DNA from: Candidatus Zymogenus saltonus
Lineage (GTDB): Bacteria; Desulfobacterota; Zymogenia; Zymogenales; Zymogenaceae
Direction: 5' to 3'
Assembly: GCA_016929395.1 (NCBI GenBank)
Contig: JAFGIX010000070.1
Coordinates: 1-64,000 of the forward strand
Length of the DNA stretch: 64,000 nt
The translations under genes and the position numbers were made by a program. This document shows positions 32,647 to 42,239 of this stretch, piece after piece. A model generated the notes under the pieces. It searched no databases. It had not been told where the DNA came from and saw nothing but the letters and a program-made list of their open reading frames with translations. The stretch's first letter is position 1. Each line of letters begins with the position of its first letter.

Positions 32647-33450
32647 TCATCCTCCCTTTAACCCGGCCTTCAGAGACGAGACGAAATTACCCACCTCCTC
32701 ATACAAGAGGTCTCCCTTATTCCCGTACTCCTCGATTATATTTACGAGGGCGCTCCCCACCACCACGCCGTCCGAGACCTCGCCCAGTTTAGCTGCCGTC
32801 TGGGGGTTGGATACCCCGAAACCGACGACGACCGGTAGCTCTGTCTTTCCCTTAAGCCCGACTATCTGATCCCTAACGTCCGCCGGAAGCTCGTCCCGAA
32901 CCCCGGTAACCCCGGTCACCGAGACGTAGTAGAGAAAGCCGGATGCGTCGGCGATTATCCTACCCAGCCTTTCGCCGTCCGTCACCGGCGAGATGAGGTT
33001 GATGAAATCTATCTTCTTGGGGTACGTAAACCTCCTGATTTCCCTCGACTCTTCGTAGGGGAGATCGACCGTTATCAATCCGTCTATTCCGACCTCCGCC
33101 GCCCTCTCGGCGAACCTCTTGGGGCCGAAGTTCAGGATGGGATTGTAGTAGCCGAACAATACGATGGGGACGTTAAGGCTCGGCCCCACTTCGTCGATGA
33201 GGTTCAATATCCCCTCCAGTGTTGTCCCCACGTCGAGGGCCCTGCCCGAGGCCCGCTGGATAGTGGGGCCGTCCGCCATCGGATCGGAGAAGGGTACGCC
33301 GATCTCTATTATATCGGCCCCCGCCTCTTCTATGGTGAAGAGGAGTCTTGCCGTCTTTTCGAGGTCGGGGTCGCCGGCGGTTAGGTACATCACGAGCCCC
33401 TTCTCGTTTTTCGCCCCGAGTCTTTCAAACGTATCTTTAATCTTACTCAT
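32647..33450 (-). CDS. trpA: Tryptophan synthase alpha chain
   Basis: 267 residues, the last gene of the trp operon. It cleaves indole-3-glycerol phosphate to indole, which passes to TrpB. Motifs: [33 protein letters not shown] (catalytic Glu and Asp), [25 protein letters not shown] and [12 protein letters not shown]. Its start overlaps the trpB stop by eight bases, so translation is coupled. Length fits the family. Confidence 0.96.
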
Positions 33451-34639
33451 TTAGAGTCACCCCCAAAACCTTCGCTACCGTGTTGATGTCCTTGTCGCCC
33501 CGGCCGGAGAGGTTCACTACGATGATCTCGTCGGCCCCCATCTTCGGGGCGTTTTCGATCACCCAGGAAACGGCGTGGGCGCTCTCCAGCGCCGGCATGA
33601 TTCCCTCGAGCTTCGTCAATCTTTGAAAGGCGTTTAGCGCCCCTTTGTCGTCGGCGCTCTCGTACCTCACCCGCCCCAGATCGTTGAGCAGGCTGTGCTC
33701 CGGCCCCACACCCGGGTAGTCCAGCCCCGCCGAGAGCGAGTGGGTGTGGAGGATCTGGCCGTGCTCGTCCTGCAGTACGTACGACTTGGAGCCGTGGAGG
33801 ACGCCGACCCTCCCCCTCGATATCGAGGCGGCGTGCCTCTCCGTATCTATCCCGTCCCCCGCCGCCTCCACGCCTATCATCTTAACCTCCTCGTCCTTCA
33901 GGAAGGGGTAGAAGAGTCCCATTGCGTTGGAGCCGCCCCCCACACACGCCACGAGGTAATCGGGGAGCCTTCCCGTACAATCCCTGATCTGCCTTTTGGT
34001 CTCTATCCCTATCACCGACTGGAAGTCCCTGACCATCATGGGGTAGGGGTGGGGGCCCGCCACGGAGCCTATCACGTAGAAGGTGTTTCTCACGTTGGTG
34101 GCCCAGTCCCTGAGCGCCTCGTTCATGGCGTCCTTCAGGGTGGCGGAGCCGGAGTTAACCGGCGTCACCTTCGCCCCCAGGAGCTTCATCCGAAACACGT
34201 TGAGGGACTGCCTCTCGATGTCCTCGGTCCCCATGAATACCTCGCACTCGAGGCCGAACAGCGCCGCAGCGGTGGCTGTCGCCACGCCGTGCTGCCCGGC
34301 TCCCGTCTCGGCGATCATTCTCTTTTTACCCATCCTCCGGCCAAGAATCACCTGGCCCAGGGTGTTGTTTATCTTGTGGGCGCCGGTGTGGCAGAGGTCT
34401 TCCCGTTTGAGCCAGACCTTCGCCCCGCCGAGGTGGTCGGTCAACCGCTTGGCGAAGTAGAGGGGCGTGGGGCGCCCCGCGTAGCTCTTAAGATACAAAT
34501 CGAGCTCGGAGAGGAGGGCGAGGTCCTTCCTGTTTTTCTCGTATGCCTCCTCGAGCTCCAGTATTGCCGGCATCAGCGTCTCGGACACGTACCTGCCGCC
34601 GTACATGCCGAAGTGTCCCTTGCTGTCAGGATACTGCAT
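33443..34639 (-). CDS. trpB: Tryptophan synthase beta chain
   Basis: 398 residues from the ATG at 34639, nine bases after AAGGAG; an in-frame TTG at 34645 is too near that site. PLP enzyme joining indole to serine. Motifs: [29 protein letters not shown] (PLP Lys), [27 protein letters not shown] (phosphate loop) and [10 protein letters not shown]. It overlaps the end of trpF by 14 bases. Confidence 0.97.
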
Positions 34640-35330
34640 CTTCAATATCTCCTTTTAACTGTGCTTTCTTCAACGACGCTCCGTTTAATGAAGCCTCGTT
34701 TAATGAAGCAATTTGCGCGTTCGTTATGAAACGATCGAGCTTTTGGTGGTCTTTTACACCGGGCTCTTTTTCGACCCCGGAAGCCGCGTCAACGCCGTAC
34801 GGGGCGTACTCCCCGACCACGCGGCCCACGTTTTCCGCGTTCAGTCCCCCGGCGATGATGATTCTGTAGTCCGGGATATATTTTTTGACGAGGCCCCAGT
34901 CGAAGCTTATGCCCGTTCCGCCGTGGGCACCCGGACGGTAGGTGTCCAGCAGGAATGTTGTCCCCTTCTTGTATGAAGAGATAAGCTCGAGGCTGCCGGC
35001 GTCCTTCACGCGGATCGCCCTGATGACCCTAAATGGGAGGTCGTCCGGAAATTCGTCCGGCCCGTTTGGCCCCTCCGGATATATCTGAACGGCGTTTAAG
35101 CAGCACATCTCGGCCGTCCTGGCGATCAGCTCGACCGGTTCGTCCACAAAGACCCCTACGGTCGATATGAACGGTGGGAGTCCTCTGACTATCTCTTCTG
35201 CCGCCTCCGGCGTCACGAAGCGGGGGCTCTTCGGGTAGAATATGAAGCCGAGGGCGTCCGCCCCAAGGCGCGCCGCGGCAAGGGCGTCCCGATCGTTTGT
35301 AATCCCGCATATCTTGATACGAATTCCCAT
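34626..35330 (-). CDS. trpF: Phosphoribosylanthranilate isomerase with pentapeptide-like tail
   Basis: 234 residues from the ATG at 35330. Isomerase motifs: [49 protein letters not shown] and [19 protein letters not shown]; the catalytic Cys is in KICG and Asp in LLDTY. After the standard domain, ending near [10 protein letters not shown], come about 30 extra residues of five-residue pattern ([21 protein letters not shown]). The DNA under it is a 13-base direct repeat (34682-34694 and 34697-34709). Its 3' end overlaps trpB. The tail is probably a recent slippage product. Confidence 0.93.
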
Positions 35331-35449
35331 AATTTTAATAAATGCCTTAAAAAAATCAAACTGTTCTTGAATTGCCTGTGGTGCGGATTCATTTATACTC
35401 CCTCTCGTCCCCACAAAAATTCGACTCCCCCCTTCCCCGACTGGCCAAC

Positions 35450-36259
35450 TCAGCCGAGGCCCAGAAGCTCCCTCATCTTCCCGCCTACATTTTTCGCCCG
35501 CATGAGGCTCTCCCCCACGAGGAAGGAGCGGATGCCGGAGCGCATCAGGAAAAAAATATCGTCAAAGCCGTTGATCCCGCTGGCGCTTACCACCGTCTTC
35601 TCCTCGGGGATCATCTTCGAGAGATTTATCGACGTGTTGAGGTCGGTGGTAAAGGTCTTGAGGTCCCTGTTGTTGATGCCGATAAGCTCCGCCCCCTCCG
35701 TCAGGGCTGTCTCGACCTCATCGGCGTCGTGCACCTCAACGAGGCAGTCGAGGCCCAGCTCGTTTGCAGTCTCCTTTAGTTCCCTTAAAAGGGCCGGATC
35801 GAGGGCAGCGACTATGAGGAGTAGGGCGTCCGCACCGAGCGCCCTCGTCTCGTATACCTGGAAGGGATCGATGATAAAATCCTTGCGGAGAACCGGTATT
35901 TTCGTTCTCTCCTTGGCGTCAATGATAAACCGATCGCTTCCGCCGAAGAACTCCGGTTCCGTAAGGACGGATACCGCGGCCGCGCCGTTCTCCTCGAATA
36001 CGGCGGCGAGCCCGCCCGGGTCGAGGTCGTTTCTGATAATCCCCGCCGACGGGCTTCCCCCCTTCACCTCGGCGATGATATTTATCTCCCGTCCGGAGTT
36101 GAGGGCCCGTATGAATCCCCTGGGTTTCTCCATGTCGGAGATTCGGCCCTTGAACTCCTTAAGCTTCACGTCCCCTTTCAAGGTCTCTACGTATTCCCGC
36201 CGCCCGGAGACTATCCTCTCGAGGATGTTTCTGTCTCCCGTTTGTTTCGTTTTATCCAT
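35450..36259 (-). CDS. trpC: Indole-3-glycerol phosphate synthase
   Basis: 269 residues from the ATG at 36259, which overlaps the trpD stop by eight bases; upstream in-frame codons lie inside trpD. It closes carboxyphenylaminodeoxyribulose phosphate to indoleglycerol phosphate. Motifs: NIIAEVKGGSPSAG (catalytic Lys/Glu block), AVSVLTEPEFFGGS, VLRKDFIIDPFQVYE, DALLLIVAAL and IGINNRDLKTF. A 119-base gap to trpF is the only break in the operon. Confidence 0.96.
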   Translation of the reverse strand: MDKTKQTGDRNILERIVSGRREYVETLKGDVKLKEFKGRISDMEKPRGFIRALNSGREINIIAEVKGGSPSAGIIRNDLDPGGLAAVFEENGAAAVSVLTEPEFFGGSDRFIIDAKERTKIPVLRKDFIIDPFQVYETRALGADALLLIVAALDPALLRELKETANELGLDCLVEVHDADEVETALTEGAELIGINNRDLKTFTTDLNTSINLSKMIPEEKTVVSASGINGFDDIFFLMRSGIRSFLVGESLMRAKNVGGKMRELLGLG

Positions 36260-37286
36260 TCTTTTGACCGTGAGCCTTTGTAAATTCCACAAGCCTCTCG
36301 AGCGTCTTCTTTGCGAGGCCGCCGTCTATTGTGTCGGCCGCCATCTCGATTCCGGCCTCGAAGTCCGGGGCGAGTCCAGCCACAATCAGGGCCGCGGCGC
36401 TGTTGAATACGACAACGTCCCGCTTGGGGCCGTCGGCACCCTGGAAGATATTCCTGATGATCATGGCGTTTTCGGCGCTGTCGCCTCCCCTGAGGTATTC
36501 AAGCCTTGTGGTTTTGAGGCCGAACTTCTCCGGCTCTACCGTGAAATTCTCTATCCCGCCGTCCTTCAGGTACGATACGGCCGACGGCCCGGCGGTGGTG
36601 AGCTCGTCGGTGCCGGAGCCGTTTACCACCATCGCCCGCGCCGACCCCAATGCATTGAGGACCTTCGCGATCACCTCAACGAGATTAGGATCATAAACGC
36701 CCAGAAGCTGGGCGCTTGCCCCCGCGGGGTTGGTGAGAGGCCCCAGGATGTTGAAGATCGTCCTTATGCCGAGCTCCTTTCTCGGGCCTATGGCGTGCTT
36801 CATGGCGCCGTGGAGCTTCGGGGCGAAGAGGAACCCGATTCCCACCTCCTCGATGCACTTCTCGACCTCTTTGGGCTCGAGATCGATGTTCACCCCCAGC
36901 GCCTCCAGGACGTCGGCGCTTCCGCACCTGCTCGATACCGACCTGTTGCCGTGCTTTGCGACCACGGCCCCGGCGCCCGCCGCCACCAGCGCCGCCGCGG
37001 TCGAGATGTTGAACGTGTTCTTGCCGTCACCCCCCGTCCCGCAGGTGTCGATTACGACCTTCCCGTTTGCGACCTTTGGATTGATCTTCACGGCCTTTTC
37101 GCGCATGATCGCAGCCGCGCCGGCAATCTCGTCGACCGTCTCGCCCTTGATCCTCAATCCGGTTATGAAGCCGCCGATCTGGGCGGGGGTGGCCTCGCCG
37201 CCCATGATCTCGCTCATAGCCCCCTCCATCTCGCTCCGGGTAAGGTCCTCACCCGATGCTATCTTGTTTAAGGTTGACTTGATCAT
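36252..37286 (-). CDS. trpD: Anthranilate phosphoribosyltransferase
   Basis: 344 residues. It transfers phosphoribose from PRPP to anthranilate. Motifs: [63 protein letters not shown] and [13 protein letters not shown]. The start lies 38 bases inside the end of trpG, a long overlap typical of tight coupling. Full length. Confidence 0.97.
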
Positions 37287-37866
37287 GACTTTCTCCTCTT
37301 TTTGCTATTTCAAGAAAGTTCGCCAAAAGCTCCTTCCCGTAATCGGACATGACCGACTCGGGATGGAACTGGATCCCGTACACGGGATGCTCTTTGTGTT
37401 TTATCCCCATTATCTCGTCCCTTTCGGTCCTCGCCGTCACCTCGAGGCAGTCCGGCACGGAGTCGGGATCGATAACGAGGGAGTGGTAGCGGACGGCCCT
37501 GAAGGGATTCGGGATCTCGACGAAGAGCTCGTCGTCGCTGTGGAATATCATGGAGGTCTTGCCGTGCATAATCCTTTGGGCCCGGACAATCTTCCCGCCG
37601 AAGGCGGCGCCGATAGCCTGATGGCCGAGACACACCCCCAGAATCGGCCTGACGCCGGCAAACCGCCTTATCAGGTCGATCGTGACGCCCGCCGAGTCGG
37701 GGGCTCCCGGCCCCGGAGATATGACGATGAAATCGGGATCGATCTTGACCGCCTCGTCTACCGTGATCGCGTCGTTCCTGTAGACCTCCATCTCCCGGCC
37801 CATCTCACCCAGGTACTGGACCAGGTTGTACGTAAAGGAATCGTAGTTATCTATCACGAGGATCAT
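37249..37866 (-). CDS. trpG: Anthranilate synthase glutamine amidotransferase component
   Basis: 205 residues, class I amidotransferase. Motifs: [43 protein letters not shown] with the nucleophile Cys, and [14 protein letters not shown] with the His/Glu pair. It feeds ammonia to TrpE. The gene follows trpE after 18 bases and overlaps trpD. It may also serve folate synthesis (PabA role), as is common for single copies. Confidence 0.95.
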
Positions 37867-37884
37867 CTCTTTTTCCCCCTGTCG

Positions 37885-39375
37885 CTATCTTAGCTTCATG
37901 TTCTTTCTGGCCATCTCCACCGCCTTCAGCATCCCCTTGGCCTTGTGTTGGGTCTCTTTGTATTCCATCTTCGGGTCGGAGTCGTAGACTATCCCCGCCC
38001 CGGCCTGCAGGTAGATCTTTCCGTTCATAACCAGCATCGTCCTTATCGTTATGCACATGTCCATGTTCCCGGAGAAGCTGAAGTACCCCACGGCCCCCCC
38101 GTAGGTGCCCCTCCTCACCGGCTCGATCTCCTCGATGATCTCCATCGCCCTGACCTTGGGCGCCCCCGTCAGCGTGCCGGCGGGAAAGGCGGCCCTCAGG
38201 ACATCGAACGAGTTATGCCCGTTTTTAAGCCTTCCCTCCACATCGGAGACGATGTGCATGACGTGGGAGTATTTCTCTATTCGCATGAGGTTTGCGACGT
38301 TGACGCTCCCGAACTGAGCTATCCGCCCGAGGTCGTTCCTGCCGAGGTCAACGAGCATGACGTGCTCCGCCAGCTCCTTAGGGTCGGAAAGCAGGTCTTC
38401 CATCAGCCTCTCGTCCTCGTCCGCACTCTTTCCCCTGGGACGGGTGCCCGCGATCGGCCTGACCTCGACCCTCTCCCCCTCCTTCCTCACCAGGACCTCC
38501 GGGGATGACCCCACGAGCGTCAACTCTTCAAACTGGAGATAGAACATGTAAGGGGAGGGATTGATTATCCTCAACGCCCTGTAGAGTTCGAACGGCTCCA
38601 CGTCGATCTCCATCTCGAAGCGCTGGGAGAGGACGACCTGAATGATGTCGCCGTTGATTATGTATTCCCTGCATTTGTCCACGGCTTCGGTGAAGTCCCT
38701 CTCGTTGAAGTTCGAGTCAACGAAGAGGGGCACGCCGTCGTCGGACTTGAGCTTCGTAAGATTAAGTGGCTGACCCAGCTTGTGGATCATGCGGTTTATC
38801 GTGGACGTCGCCTCGACGTATGAGTCCTCGGGGGGCGACGAGCTGTCCAGGAAGACATTCGCCACGAGCTTCATGGTGTTTCTCGCGTTGTCGAATACCA
38901 CCACATTGCAGGGGATTATGAAGTATGAATCGTAGGTCTTGAGGTCATCCGGCTTTGAATTCGGGATATTCTCCATGAACCTCACCATGTCGTAGCTCAG
39001 GTATCCCACGGCCCCGCCGTAGAACCTGGGGAGGCCGGGCACATCCACCACCGGGCGGTAGCGGTCCATGATCTCTTTCAGCTTCGACAGCGGGTCATCC
39101 TCCTTCGTTGTGTAGAGGAGCTCGCCGTTCTTCAAAACCTCTATCATATTTCCCTTTGAGCGAAATATCATCGCCGGGCCGATCCCGAGGAAGCTGTACC
39201 TCCCCCACTTCTCCCCTCCCTCCACGCTCTCCAGCAAAAACGACGGGGATGCGCCGTTGAGCTTCTTGAAGGCGGAGACAGGCGTCTCCAGGTCAGCCAG
39301 TATCTCCTGATAAACGGGGATCAGGTTTCCCTCCATCGACAGTCTCTCGAATTCCTGAAAGGTCGGTGTGATCAT
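37885..39375 (-). CDS. trpE: Anthranilate synthase component I
   Basis: About 496 residues from the ATG at 39375, with AAGGA eight bases upstream. An in-frame start at 39435 would lie inside a terminator hairpin and is rejected. Motifs: LLESVEGGEKWGRYSFLG (tryptophan-binding feedback region), FVDSNFNERDFTEAV, SPEVLVRKEGERVEVRPIAG, AEHVMLVDLGRNDLGRIA and AFPAGTLTGAPKVRAM. First committed enzyme of the pathway and first gene of trpEGDCFBA, with the attenuator-like leader in front. Confidence 0.96.
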   Translation of the reverse strand: MITPTFQEFERLSMEGNLIPVYQEILADLETPVSAFKKLNGASPSFLLESVEGGEKWGRYSFLGIGPAMIFRSKGNMIEVLKNGELLYTTKEDDPLSKLKEIMDRYRPVVDVPGLPRFYGGAVGYLSYDMVRFMENIPNSKPDDLKTYDSYFIIPCNVVVFDNARNTMKLVANVFLDSSSPPEDSYVEATSTINRMIHKLGQPLNLTKLKSDDGVPLFVDSNFNERDFTEAVDKCREYIINGDIIQVVLSQRFEMEIDVEPFELYRALRIINPSPYMFYLQFEELTLVGSSPEVLVRKEGERVEVRPIAGTRPRGKSADEDERLMEDLLSDPKELAEHVMLVDLGRNDLGRIAQFGSVNVANLMRIEKYSHVMHIVSDVEGRLKNGHNSFDVLRAAFPAGTLTGAPKVRAMEIIEEIEPVRRGTYGGAVGYFSFSGNMDMCITIRTMLVMNGKIYLQAGAGIVYDSDPKMEYKETQHKAKGMLKAVEMARKNMKLR

Positions 39376-39404
39376 ATCCGGGTTCCTTTGGGTCACTTTT
39401 GAAA

Positions 39405-39440
39405 ATAAAAAAAGTTGTGGACGGTTCATATCCACAACTT
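39405..39440 (-). terminator. trp leader terminator 3 (nearest trpE)
   Basis: On the minus strand AGTTGTGGA pairs with TCCACAACT (39439-39431 and 39421-39413) around nine loop bases, followed by a run of T at 39413-39407. It ends 30 bases before the trpE start codon, so trpE is expressed only if it is bypassed. Confidence 0.85.
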
Positions 39441-39462
39441 TTGGGCCATAACTTTCAGGCGC

Positions 39463-39497
39463 AAAAAAGCCGTGGAGAATGAGTTTCGTCCACGGCC
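39463..39497 (-). terminator. trp leader terminator 2
   Basis: GCCGTGGA (39496-39489) pairs with TCCACGGC (39476-39469) over 12 loop bases, followed by six T on the minus strand. The inner GTGGA/TCCAC half-stem is shared with terminator 3, so arms of the two hairpins could also pair with one another. Confidence 0.8.
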
Positions 39498-39513
39498 TGA
39501 AAAATCAGCTATT

Positions 39514-39648
39514 TAAAAAAACAGGTTTAGGCCGGCGAACCCCTCCATATGTGGCTCTGCCACGCCCAAGAATAAACCGAAATATTCTTTTTGGAAGTCT
39601 TGTTAAAAATCTTGTTAAAAGATTTGCTGATCAACCTGAGTACCTGTT
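39514..39648 (-). ncRNA. Structured trp leader RNA domain with its own T run
   Basis: The RNA from the promoter at 39669-39696 starts near 39662. AACAGGT (39648-39642) pairs with ACCTGTT (39526-39520) to close a domain with three hairpins in order: AAATCTT/AAGATTT (39625-39607), AAGAATA/TATTCTT (39589-39568) and GTGGC/GCCAC (39563-39551). A GG-TTCG-CC mini-hairpin may follow. The closing stem runs straight into seven T (39521-39515), so the domain ends in a terminator-like element. No Trp codon pair or SD-led leader peptide is seen, and it does not match the T-box consensus. Ligand or partner unknown. Confidence 0.55.
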
Positions 39649-39668
39649 AAATTTACATTTGAGGGGAA

Positions 39669-39696
39669 ATTATACCGGTTTCTTCTTTCTTGTCAA
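39669..39696 (-). promoter_or_regulatory. Sigma-70 promoter of the trp operon
   Basis: On the minus strand perfect TTGACA (39696-39691) and TATAAT (39674-39669) are 16 bases apart. The start site would be about 39662, giving a leader of ~290 bases before trpE. Confidence 0.85.
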
Positions 39697-39803: not shown

Positions 39804-40751
39804 TTATTTGGTCCTCTCGTGTCTCGTCCCGTGTCTCCCCGCTCCCTTCCAGCGGGGATTCGTCCATGCCCACTGGTCCGGGTATCTTCGGATCTGTTTC
39901 TCTATCACCTCGTTCATGATGAGGGATATGTTGTAAATGTCCTTCTCTTTGTCTCCGGTCAGCTCCGGCTCGATCGGCGGGAATATCTCTATATCGAATT
40001 TCGAGTCCTCTACCACGTGGATAAAGGCGGGGACTATGGGCGCCCCGGAGCGGAGAACCAGGATGGCGGGGCCTGGGGCCGTCAATGCGTCCCTTCCAAA
40101 GAAGGGGACGATTATCCCATCGCGCTTTTTCCTCTCGTCGGCGACGATGATTACTATCTCGTTGTTTTTCAGGGCCCTCAAGATATCCTTTGTGGCGCTA
40201 AACCCCTTGTCGGCGTCTATTCTTTCGATCCCGCATATCTCTTGATAGCGTTTGTACACGCCCTTTAACGTTTCGTTGCTCGGATCCTTCAGGACCACAT
40301 TAAAGGGGATCCCGGTCATTGTGAGCCTTACGATCATGAGGACAAAGTTCGACAAGTGGGCGCTTAAGAGAATGGCGCCTTTTCCCTTCTTTAAGGCCGA
40401 TTCCAGGTGTTCTATGCCCGAGATGGGACAGTTTTCAATGATCTTTTGGTGATTTCTCGGATTCAAGTAGTAAATGAGATCGGGAAATGTCTTGGAAAGA
40501 TTCCAAAACACGCTTTTTATGAACTTCCGCCTCTCCCTTCTCGTAAGGTCGCTCCCGAAGACGATGTCGATATTCGGAATTACTATTTTCCTGATGTCCG
40601 GAATGAGATAAACAACCGGGTATAGCGGGCAATAGATCATGTACATGATCGTGTTGGTGATCTTGAGCGGTATCTTCGGGATAATGAATTCCGCTATCCC
40701 TATGAAAAACCCGCCGATATCGTAGCGTAATTTTTTCAGAAAGCTCTTCAT
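39804..40751 (-). CDS. LpxL-type lysophospholipid/lipid A acyltransferase family protein
   Basis: 315 residues with an N-terminal hydrophobic region (FFIGIAEFIIPKIPLKITNTIM). The family core is present: GKGAILLSAHLSNFVL around the catalytic His, VIIVADERKKRDGIIVPFFGRDALT and GPAILVLRSGAPIVPAF. Family members transfer acyl chains to lipid A precursors at the inner membrane. The usual catalytic His-x4-Glu (or Asp) pair reads HLSNFV here, with Val at the acid position. It is on the same strand as the paralogue at 41334-42239, about 580 bases away. Whether it is active, or has another substrate, is open. Confidence 0.8.
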   Translation of the reverse strand: MKSFLKKLRYDIGGFFIGIAEFIIPKIPLKITNTIMYMIYCPLYPVVYLIPDIRKIVIPNIDIVFGSDLTRRERRKFIKSVFWNLSKTFPDLIYYLNPRNHQKIIENCPISGIEHLESALKKGKGAILLSAHLSNFVLMIVRLTMTGIPFNVVLKDPSNETLKGVYKRYQEICGIERIDADKGFSATKDILRALKNNEIVIIVADERKKRDGIIVPFFGRDALTAPGPAILVLRSGAPIVPAFIHVVEDSKFDIEIFPPIEPELTGDKEKDIYNISLIMNEVIEKQIRRYPDQWAWTNPRWKGAGRHGTRHERTK

Positions 40752-41333: not shown

Positions 41334-42239
41334 CTACATCTTCCACCTGGGATTCAACCATATCCACTGGTCGGGGTACTTCCTTATGTAGTCCTCGATC
41401 GACTTGTTGACCTTTGCCGTTATCTGGTAGATATCCTCTTTTTCGTCCCCGGTTGGCTCGTATTCTATTCTGGGGAGGATATCGATAACGCAGCCATCCT
41501 CATGGTTGATGTATATCGGGATTATTGGGGCTCCTGTTGTCAAGGAGAGGACGGCCGGACCTTTTGCGGTCAGGGCCGGCTTTCCGAAGAACGGCACGGA
41601 GATGCCGTCCCTCTTTTTTCTCTCGTCGGCGATGAGGTAGACGAGCATGTTGTCCTTCAGTGAGCTCAAAATGTCATCCCTCGCCCTTTCCCGATCGTCC
41701 ACGTCAATATATTTTACGCCGCTGATGCTCCACCACTCGCTGTATTTTTCTTTCAAGAACTTGTTCCTCGGGGCCTTTGTCGGGACGATAAAGGGCATGT
41801 CCGACTGGGCGAGCCTCACGGTCAGCAGCATGAAGTCCACCATGTGTGAGCCAAGGCCGATGACGCCCCTACCCTCTTTCAGTGCCTCTTCTAAATGCTC
41901 CCTTCCCGAGATGGTAATATCCCGCTTGAGCTTATCGTGATTTTTCGGGTGGCCGTAATAGAGAATTTCCCCCGGCATCCTGAAGAGGGATTTTAAAAAA
42001 CTTCGGCAGAGGCGCCTTGTCTCGGATTTTGTCAGCTGATCCCCGAAGGCGATGCGGAGATTTCCGAAAAGCTGCCTGCGAAGGGATGGAATGCGATACA
42101 AAAAGGGGTAAAGAATTAAAAAGAGAGAATCCGAGATAAAGCGGGTTAAAAAGAGGGGGGTTCTTGTGAAGAAGAACTGAACAAAGGAGATCACTATCTC
42201 GCCCAGGGCACTTCTTAGTCTTTTAAATGGTACTTTCAT
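41334..42239 (-). CDS. LpxL-type acyltransferase family protein, paralogue
   Basis: 301 residues, similar in length and layout to the protein at 39804-40751: a hydrophobic N-terminus, GRGVIGLGSHMVDFML, LVYLIADERKKRDGISVPFFGKPA and TGAPIIPIYINHEDG. The His-x4-acid motif reads HMVDFM, with Met at the usual Glu/Asp position. The two proteins share the unusual IADERKKRDG block, so they come from a duplication within this lineage. Likely membrane-associated and involved in envelope lipid. Confidence 0.8.
   Translation of the reverse strand: MKVPFKRLRSALGEIVISFVQFFFTRTPLFLTRFISDSLFLILYPFLYRIPSLRRQLFGNLRIAFGDQLTKSETRRLCRSFLKSLFRMPGEILYYGHPKNHDKLKRDITISGREHLEEALKEGRGVIGLGSHMVDFMLLTVRLAQSDMPFIVPTKAPRNKFLKEKYSEWWSISGVKYIDVDDRERARDDILSSLKDNMLVYLIADERKKRDGISVPFFGKPALTAKGPAVLSLTTGAPIIPIYINHEDGCVIDILPRIEYEPTGDEKEDIYQITAKVNKSIEDYIRKYPDQWIWLNPRWKM

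Follow-up and report, generated by a model that had tools for sequence, protein, structure and literature searches.

A probable leader-peptide attenuator with two terminators in series before the trp operon of Candidatus Zymogenus saltonus

How does Candidatus Zymogenus saltonus control its tryptophan biosynthesis genes? The question is raised by a leader of ~290 nt that lies between a promoter and trpE, the first gene of the operon, on the minus strand of the 64,000-nt stretch of contig JAFGIX010000070.1 analysed here (the window). A preliminary description of this DNA had noted a near-perfect promoter, and all 12 consensus positions are indeed matched, with 16 nt between TTGACA and TATAAT (39696–39669). 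It had further taken the leader to be untranslated and devoid of a leader peptide with Trp codons, and had proposed either a new tryptophan-responsive riboregulator or an independently terminated small RNA. From sequence and comparison, we instead read the leader as a device for ribosome-mediated attenuation of trp operon transcription, in which two terminators stand one after the other, and put the probability of this reading at about 0.93. The features are collected in Table 1.

TTGACA/TATAAT-like promoters also precede the trpE leaders of G003 and G002, the two relatives from the same family whose trpE could be located; the search of G001, the sole genome of the same genus, gave no trpE match. 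The trpE gene begins at 39375, a conserved start position, and a 'GTG start' at 39435, inside terminator 3, is read as an artefact of the ORF caller. Elsewhere around the operon, trpF carries a repetitive-looking C-terminal extension that overlaps the trpB start (window 34626–34730, minus strand), and two similar lipid A/lysophospholipid acyltransferase-like ORFs lie in tandem upstream of the trp promoter (window 39804–40751 and 41334–42239, minus strand), the first assigned via NCBIfam and the second via sequence likeness only.

Table 1 Features of the trp leader and related loci. Positions refer to the window unless a locus is given; 'stop' marks the end of a peptide.
Feature	Position	Strand	Basis or remark
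Promoter	39669–39696	(-)	-35 TTGACA 39696–39691, 16-nt spacer, -10 TATAAT 39674–39669; 12/12 consensus match
Weak Shine-Dalgarno-like ACAGG, 8 nt upstream of leader start	39643–39647	(-)	Sequence; putative role
Leader peptide ORF, TTG start, (M)ISKSFNKIFNKTSKKNISVYSWAWQSHIWRGSPA-stop	39527–39634	(-)	35 codons; TAA stop ends at 39527
Control Trp codons 1 and 2, UGG GCG UGG	39560–39568	(-)	ORF reading; same TGGGCGTGGC in G003 trpE leader and own trpB2 leader
Third Trp codon, at edge of segment P	39545–39547	(-)	ORF reading
Segment P, antiterminator 5' strand, 3' end of leader ORF	39530–39549	(-)	P:A duplex and P:A matching test
Terminator 2 (arm A, arm B, U6 run)	39463–39498	(-)	A:B helix paired throughout (100%); double-sided changes at 4 pairs
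Segment A, 5' arm of terminator 2; partner B or P	39485–39498	(-)	
Segment B, 3' arm of terminator 2 and U run; partner A or C	39463–39476	(-)	
Terminator 3, arm C 39442–39431, arm D 39421–39410, U run	39403–39442	(-)	C:D helix 92.8% paired; double-sided changes in 7/8 pairs
Segment C, 5' arm of terminator 3; partner D or B	39431–39442	(-)	
trpE Shine-Dalgarno region AAAGGAACC	39381–39389	(-)	Sequence
trpEGDCFBA operon	32647–39375	(-)	trpE first gene; NCBIfam trpE, trpG, trpD, trpC, trpF, trpB, trpA
Second Trp leader-peptide attenuator, tandem terminators, before trpB2	L238 (own genome C10:61500–67500), about 3764–3570	(-)	

The leader is not devoid of coding potential: it holds a 35-codon frame reading UGG GCG UGG ... 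UGG (39634–39527), which is easy to overlook because of its TTG start. The three UGG codons begin at 39568, 39562 and 39547, and a shuffled leader yields a frame with three W residues and a cluster of the W-x-W type in 0.18% of cases. A W-x-W leader peptide with the same position and core is found in both family relatives (NWAWRIYIGDSSVR-stop and NWWVWRNTIRGGSSVQ-stop; C-terminal ends ...SNYFNWAWRIYIGDSSVR-stop in G003 and ...SSGNWWVWRNTIRGGSSVQ-stop in G002). Since the Trp-codon frame is shared with these relatives, the earlier negative on a leader peptide was wrong. Translation would begin at the TTG, and this start, together with the weak Shine-Dalgarno sequence, counts against the attenuation reading. 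A mini-ORF with one Trp codon that runs into terminator 3 (ATG GCC CAA AAG TTG TGG ATA TGA) was set aside; the relatives' Trp codons sit in the upstream ORF. Along the leader, the first two Trp codons (39568–39560) are followed by segment P (39549–39530) and the stop codon (39529–39527), an order in which a ribosome at the stop covers P; the third Trp codon lies at the edge of P, so a ribosome stalling there would cover P as well.

Downstream of this frame, the two stem-loops with T runs and shared inner arms that had been described before were recovered as terminators 2 and 3 (39498–39463 and 39442–39403), with GUGGA/UCCAC common to both. The 263-nt leader is predicted to fold more stably than its own shuffles (z -3.9). 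Across 19 tandem loci, 96.4% of cells in the A:B and C:D helices pair and 11 of the 16 pairs show double-sided changes, a level of covariation reached by 0/500 shuffles, and pairing falls to about 40% if the partner is slid by one column. Covariation in homologous leaders, whose absence would have told against the proposal of the preliminary description, is present in both terminator stems.

Segment A has a second potential partner in segment P. The P:A duplex is predicted at about -18 to -21 kcal/mol in the own locus, G003 and G002, and the stretch from P to A alone folds to the P:A helix in G003, G002 and the own trpB2 leader. Matched P and A segments give a mean duplex energy of -20.5 kcal/mol vs -15.8 kcal/mol for mismatched ones (z -10.5), with z -9.0 after removal of near-duplicates and z -0.9 for a reversed-A control, in a permutation that ignores phylogeny. 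A hairpin between the Trp-codon region and P, a candidate pause or protector element, is predicted in the own locus and G003 and is absent from the best fold of G002. Together, sequence and comparison bear out the leader frame, both terminators and the predicted A:B, C:D and P:A pairings.

With these elements, a ribosome would translate the leader peptide behind RNA polymerase. When charged tRNA-Trp is ample, it would reach the stop codon and cover P, so that A pairs with B as terminator 2, and a polymerase reading through terminator 2 would then meet C:D, which is terminator 3. When Trp is short, the ribosome would stall at UGG GCG UGG and leave P free to pair with A, which would block terminator 2 and free B; while D is still to be transcribed, B could pair with C, so that terminator 3 would be disarmed and transcription would enter trpE. 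Both the stalling and the kinetic order are steps that we infer. Staged folding of the own sequence, assuming that the footprint of a stalled ribosome extends roughly 12 nt ahead of its A site and leaves the RNA free from about 39549, predicted P:A with the polymerase just past A. At equilibrium, A:B beat P:A once B was made and before C; with C made, the best fold combined P:A with B:C; and with D made (full length), the two terminators won even with P free. A ribosome placed at the stop codon left A:B as the sole pairing available, and without any ribosome the Trp-codon region held P and A:B formed. Because the terminators win at equilibrium, the leader would terminate by default, and antitermination must depend on kinetics, with P:A forming first, an order that is the usual assumption for attenuators (general scheme, PMC1183508).

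The same arrangement is met a second time in this genome. The pattern GCCGYG-loop-CRCGGC-N-TTTT occurs three times, at terminator 2 and as a tandem pair on contig 10, and the gene after this pair is trpB2, encoding a TrpB-like PLP enzyme (NCBIfam NF009057/PRK12391). A leader peptide ending in ...MKGWAWRSYIGGLLRPPL-stop precedes the tandem terminators of trpB2, and TGGGCGTGGCNNAGCYACATA, common to the core DNA of the trpB2 and trpE leaders, has zero-mismatch matches in the genome at only these two places. The trpB2 gene of G003 likewise has its own W-rich leader (...RWMWVWPGYIGALVRP-stop) and two terminators. That two Trp loci of a single genome carry what appears to be the same device strongly supports the attenuator reading.

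A conserved block, GGTGATCGCCC(T/C)ATGGGGCG, lies downstream of the trpB2 terminators, at L238:3509–3529 (minus strand) and in the G003 trpB2 leader (L240, L272), once in each of the two genomes. It combines a near-perfect Shine-Dalgarno sequence with a micro-ORF containing one Trp codon (MGRVWC-stop, MGRRWK-stop) and is perhaps a second, translational Trp sensor.

The leader peptide also recurs beyond the family. A DNA search of the relatives with the whole leader made only terminator 2 of G003 stand out. At the level of layout, trpE was located in 297 of the 395 genomes of the phylum, and a W-rich closed ORF (W.{0,2}W cluster) directly precedes a terminator in 66 of 210 trpE upstream regions vs 3.6 in shuffles; a WWW run is found in 35 of the 210, vs 0.0. 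For ten other residues, the same test did not exceed 30 regions (Ile) or 4 runs of three. Leader peptides in the phylum commonly take the form ...NNWWWWNLKGR..RR-stop. A second terminator follows in the leader at 27/55 cleaned loci, including two doubtful ones (L231 and L237), and about half of the W-leaders have one terminator only by the rule applied. Loci with the tandem layout include Smithella and Syntrophaceae (L033, L035, L067), names from which we take the phylum to be deltaproteobacteria-like (Desulfobacterota).

Several loci vary this layout. At L029, L064, L098, L123 and L210, a Trp leader peptide is accompanied by one detected terminator only, and forms with one and with two terminators thus coexist. 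At L201, L207, L211, L218 and L228, the first hairpin is of the GGGGCCCC type, with a stem unlike that of the second hairpin (GCCGTGGCCC type); pairing between the 3' arm of the first and the 5' arm of the second is nevertheless kept. In genus g41 (L247, L250, L251, L258, L266), trpB2 lies directly upstream of trpE and itself bears a W-rich attenuator; the device thus seems to precede whichever gene comes first.

Whether the two terminators are linked depends on B and C. An exchange of partners between terminators 2 and 3 had been anticipated, and B and C of the own locus can indeed form 12 contiguous pairs (UCCACGGCUUUU with AAAAGUUGUGGA). Comparison gives the B:C pairing moderate support: matched duplexes reach -17.8 vs -15.2 for mismatched ones (z -4.3), with z -2.8 for the reversed control, indicating a noticeable composition effect, in a permutation that ignores phylogeny, and 86.8% of cells in the B:C columns pair, a value matched by 37/500 shuffles, the corresponding figure for the covariation score being 4/500. 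Coupling of terminator 3 via B:C is plausible. In that case the leader would be a relay attenuator, in which successive helices that exclude one another (P:A, A:B, B:C, C:D) would let one stalled ribosome disarm both serial terminators, with the layout recurring across the phylum before trpE and trpB2. We see the odds on this fuller proposal as even.

A tentative, though real, possibility is that attenuation governs terminator 2 only, terminator 3 being an uncoupled fail-safe whose shared arms reflect a duplication of terminator 2. The weak covariation of B:C and the single terminator of other leaders fit such an arrangement, as does the nearly invariant GCCGTG/CACGGC core, through which B:C complementarity could stem from duplication. 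However, a terminator 3 blind to the ribosome would also halt transcription under starvation, so one would expect some means of disarming it. C and D of the own locus, moreover, have been altered together, yet G-U pairs keep B:C at 12 contiguous pairs, and the three GCCGYG-type terminators of the genome all lie in its two Trp leaders, which argues against a mere house style.

The terminated leader might, in addition, be set free as a small RNA with a further role in trans, by analogy with Sinorhizobium meliloti, whose trp leader peptide (peTrpL) and leader RNA are reported to act in this way (PMC7298713). That system resembles ours in being leader-peptide trp attenuation outside enterics; it differs in that trans action is reported there and would be conjectural here. 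With its perfect promoter and two strong terminators, the locus would yield abundant RNA of about 190–260 nt, but such a role, which we think unlikely, would supplement attenuation and not substitute for it.

Far less probable is that the multi-hairpin domain previously described at 39648–39514 forms a riboswitch of a new kind that binds tryptophan. A multi-branched fold with a 7-bp closing stem (39648–39642 with 39526–39520) and a T7 run is indeed predicted there. The fold is, however, barely above shuffles (z only -1.76), 3.4% of shuffles with the T7 tail fixed yield a comparable closing stem, the stem and T run are not found in G003 or G002, no Rfam family matches, and a reading frame with conserved Trp codons occupies the region. 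As domain and T run are absent from the relatives, neither a riboswitch nor an independently terminated small RNA built on them is supported; what remains of the proposed riboregulator is an RNA control element related to Trp.

Known families and regulators do not account for the leader either. An Rfam scan of the window returned no family at gathering score and a relaxed scan only chance-level matches; neither T-box nor 6S models matched, and the T-box result agrees with the preliminary description. The Trp_leader model RF00513 failed to match here with E values up to 10 allowed and gave nothing genome-wide above its cut-off (gathering 41 bits), and the trpB motif (RF04312) reached 19.7 bits at the locus (E 3.1), below its cut-off of 59 bits. 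A divergent T-box reading tRNA-Trp, suggested by a UGGC motif in the conserved core that complements the end of tRNA-Trp, can practically be dismissed, since no T-box model matched here although E values up to 10 were admitted and the motif is accounted for by UGG triplets in frame with the conserved ORF, which reach WWWW in other members. Neither TRAP (MtrB, PF02081) nor TrpR (PF01371) was found in the 99.6%-complete genome, in searches whose controls detected Bacillus subtilis TRAP and E. coli TrpR; the preliminary description had likewise seen no TRAP sites in the leader.

Ribosome-mediated attenuation is known from the trp operon of E. coli. Our leader shares with E. coli trpL (RF00513) a leader peptide with Trp codons, an antiterminator that a stalled ribosome would free, and an intrinsic terminator before trpE; in the own locus, the Trp-codon region is also predicted to pair with P in a hairpin when no ribosome is present. 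Unlike trpL, it has two serial terminators with shared arms, a longer leader peptide (35 codons) and about 31 nt between P and A, and is not matched by RF00513. More than one attenuation step in a leader is also seen in the tandem attenuators of Salmonella mgtCBR (PMC3641672), but there two ORFs sense two signals, whereas here one ORF and one signal would act on two terminators. The rimP-leader (Naville and Gautheret, PMC2965389) likewise combines tandem terminators with a potential antiterminator, but is not a leader-peptide system for an amino acid. The trpB motif, reported from Firmicutes and Fusobacteria, comprises a hairpin with a possible antiterminator shoulder followed by a terminator, sometimes before trpB (PMC11109978), but our locus falls well below its threshold, as noted above. 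Neither a trp leader peptide from this group nor an attenuator with tandem terminators came up in the literature search, which covered the older attenuation literature incompletely, so this absence is weak evidence and any claim to novelty is tentative. The mechanism is thus a known one, and serial terminators with interchangeable arms, recurring across the phylum, seem to be new.

These results carry a caution for annotation, in that a leader ORF can easily pass for a structured non-coding RNA if its start codon is a rare one. They indicate that leader-peptide attenuation of trp genes, to which the Rfam Trp_leader model is blind and of which the searched literature describes no case here, is common in this deltaproteobacteria-like phylum. 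They also suggest what serial terminators may bring to the cell: two chances to stop should tighten repression, while one sensing event would still release both.
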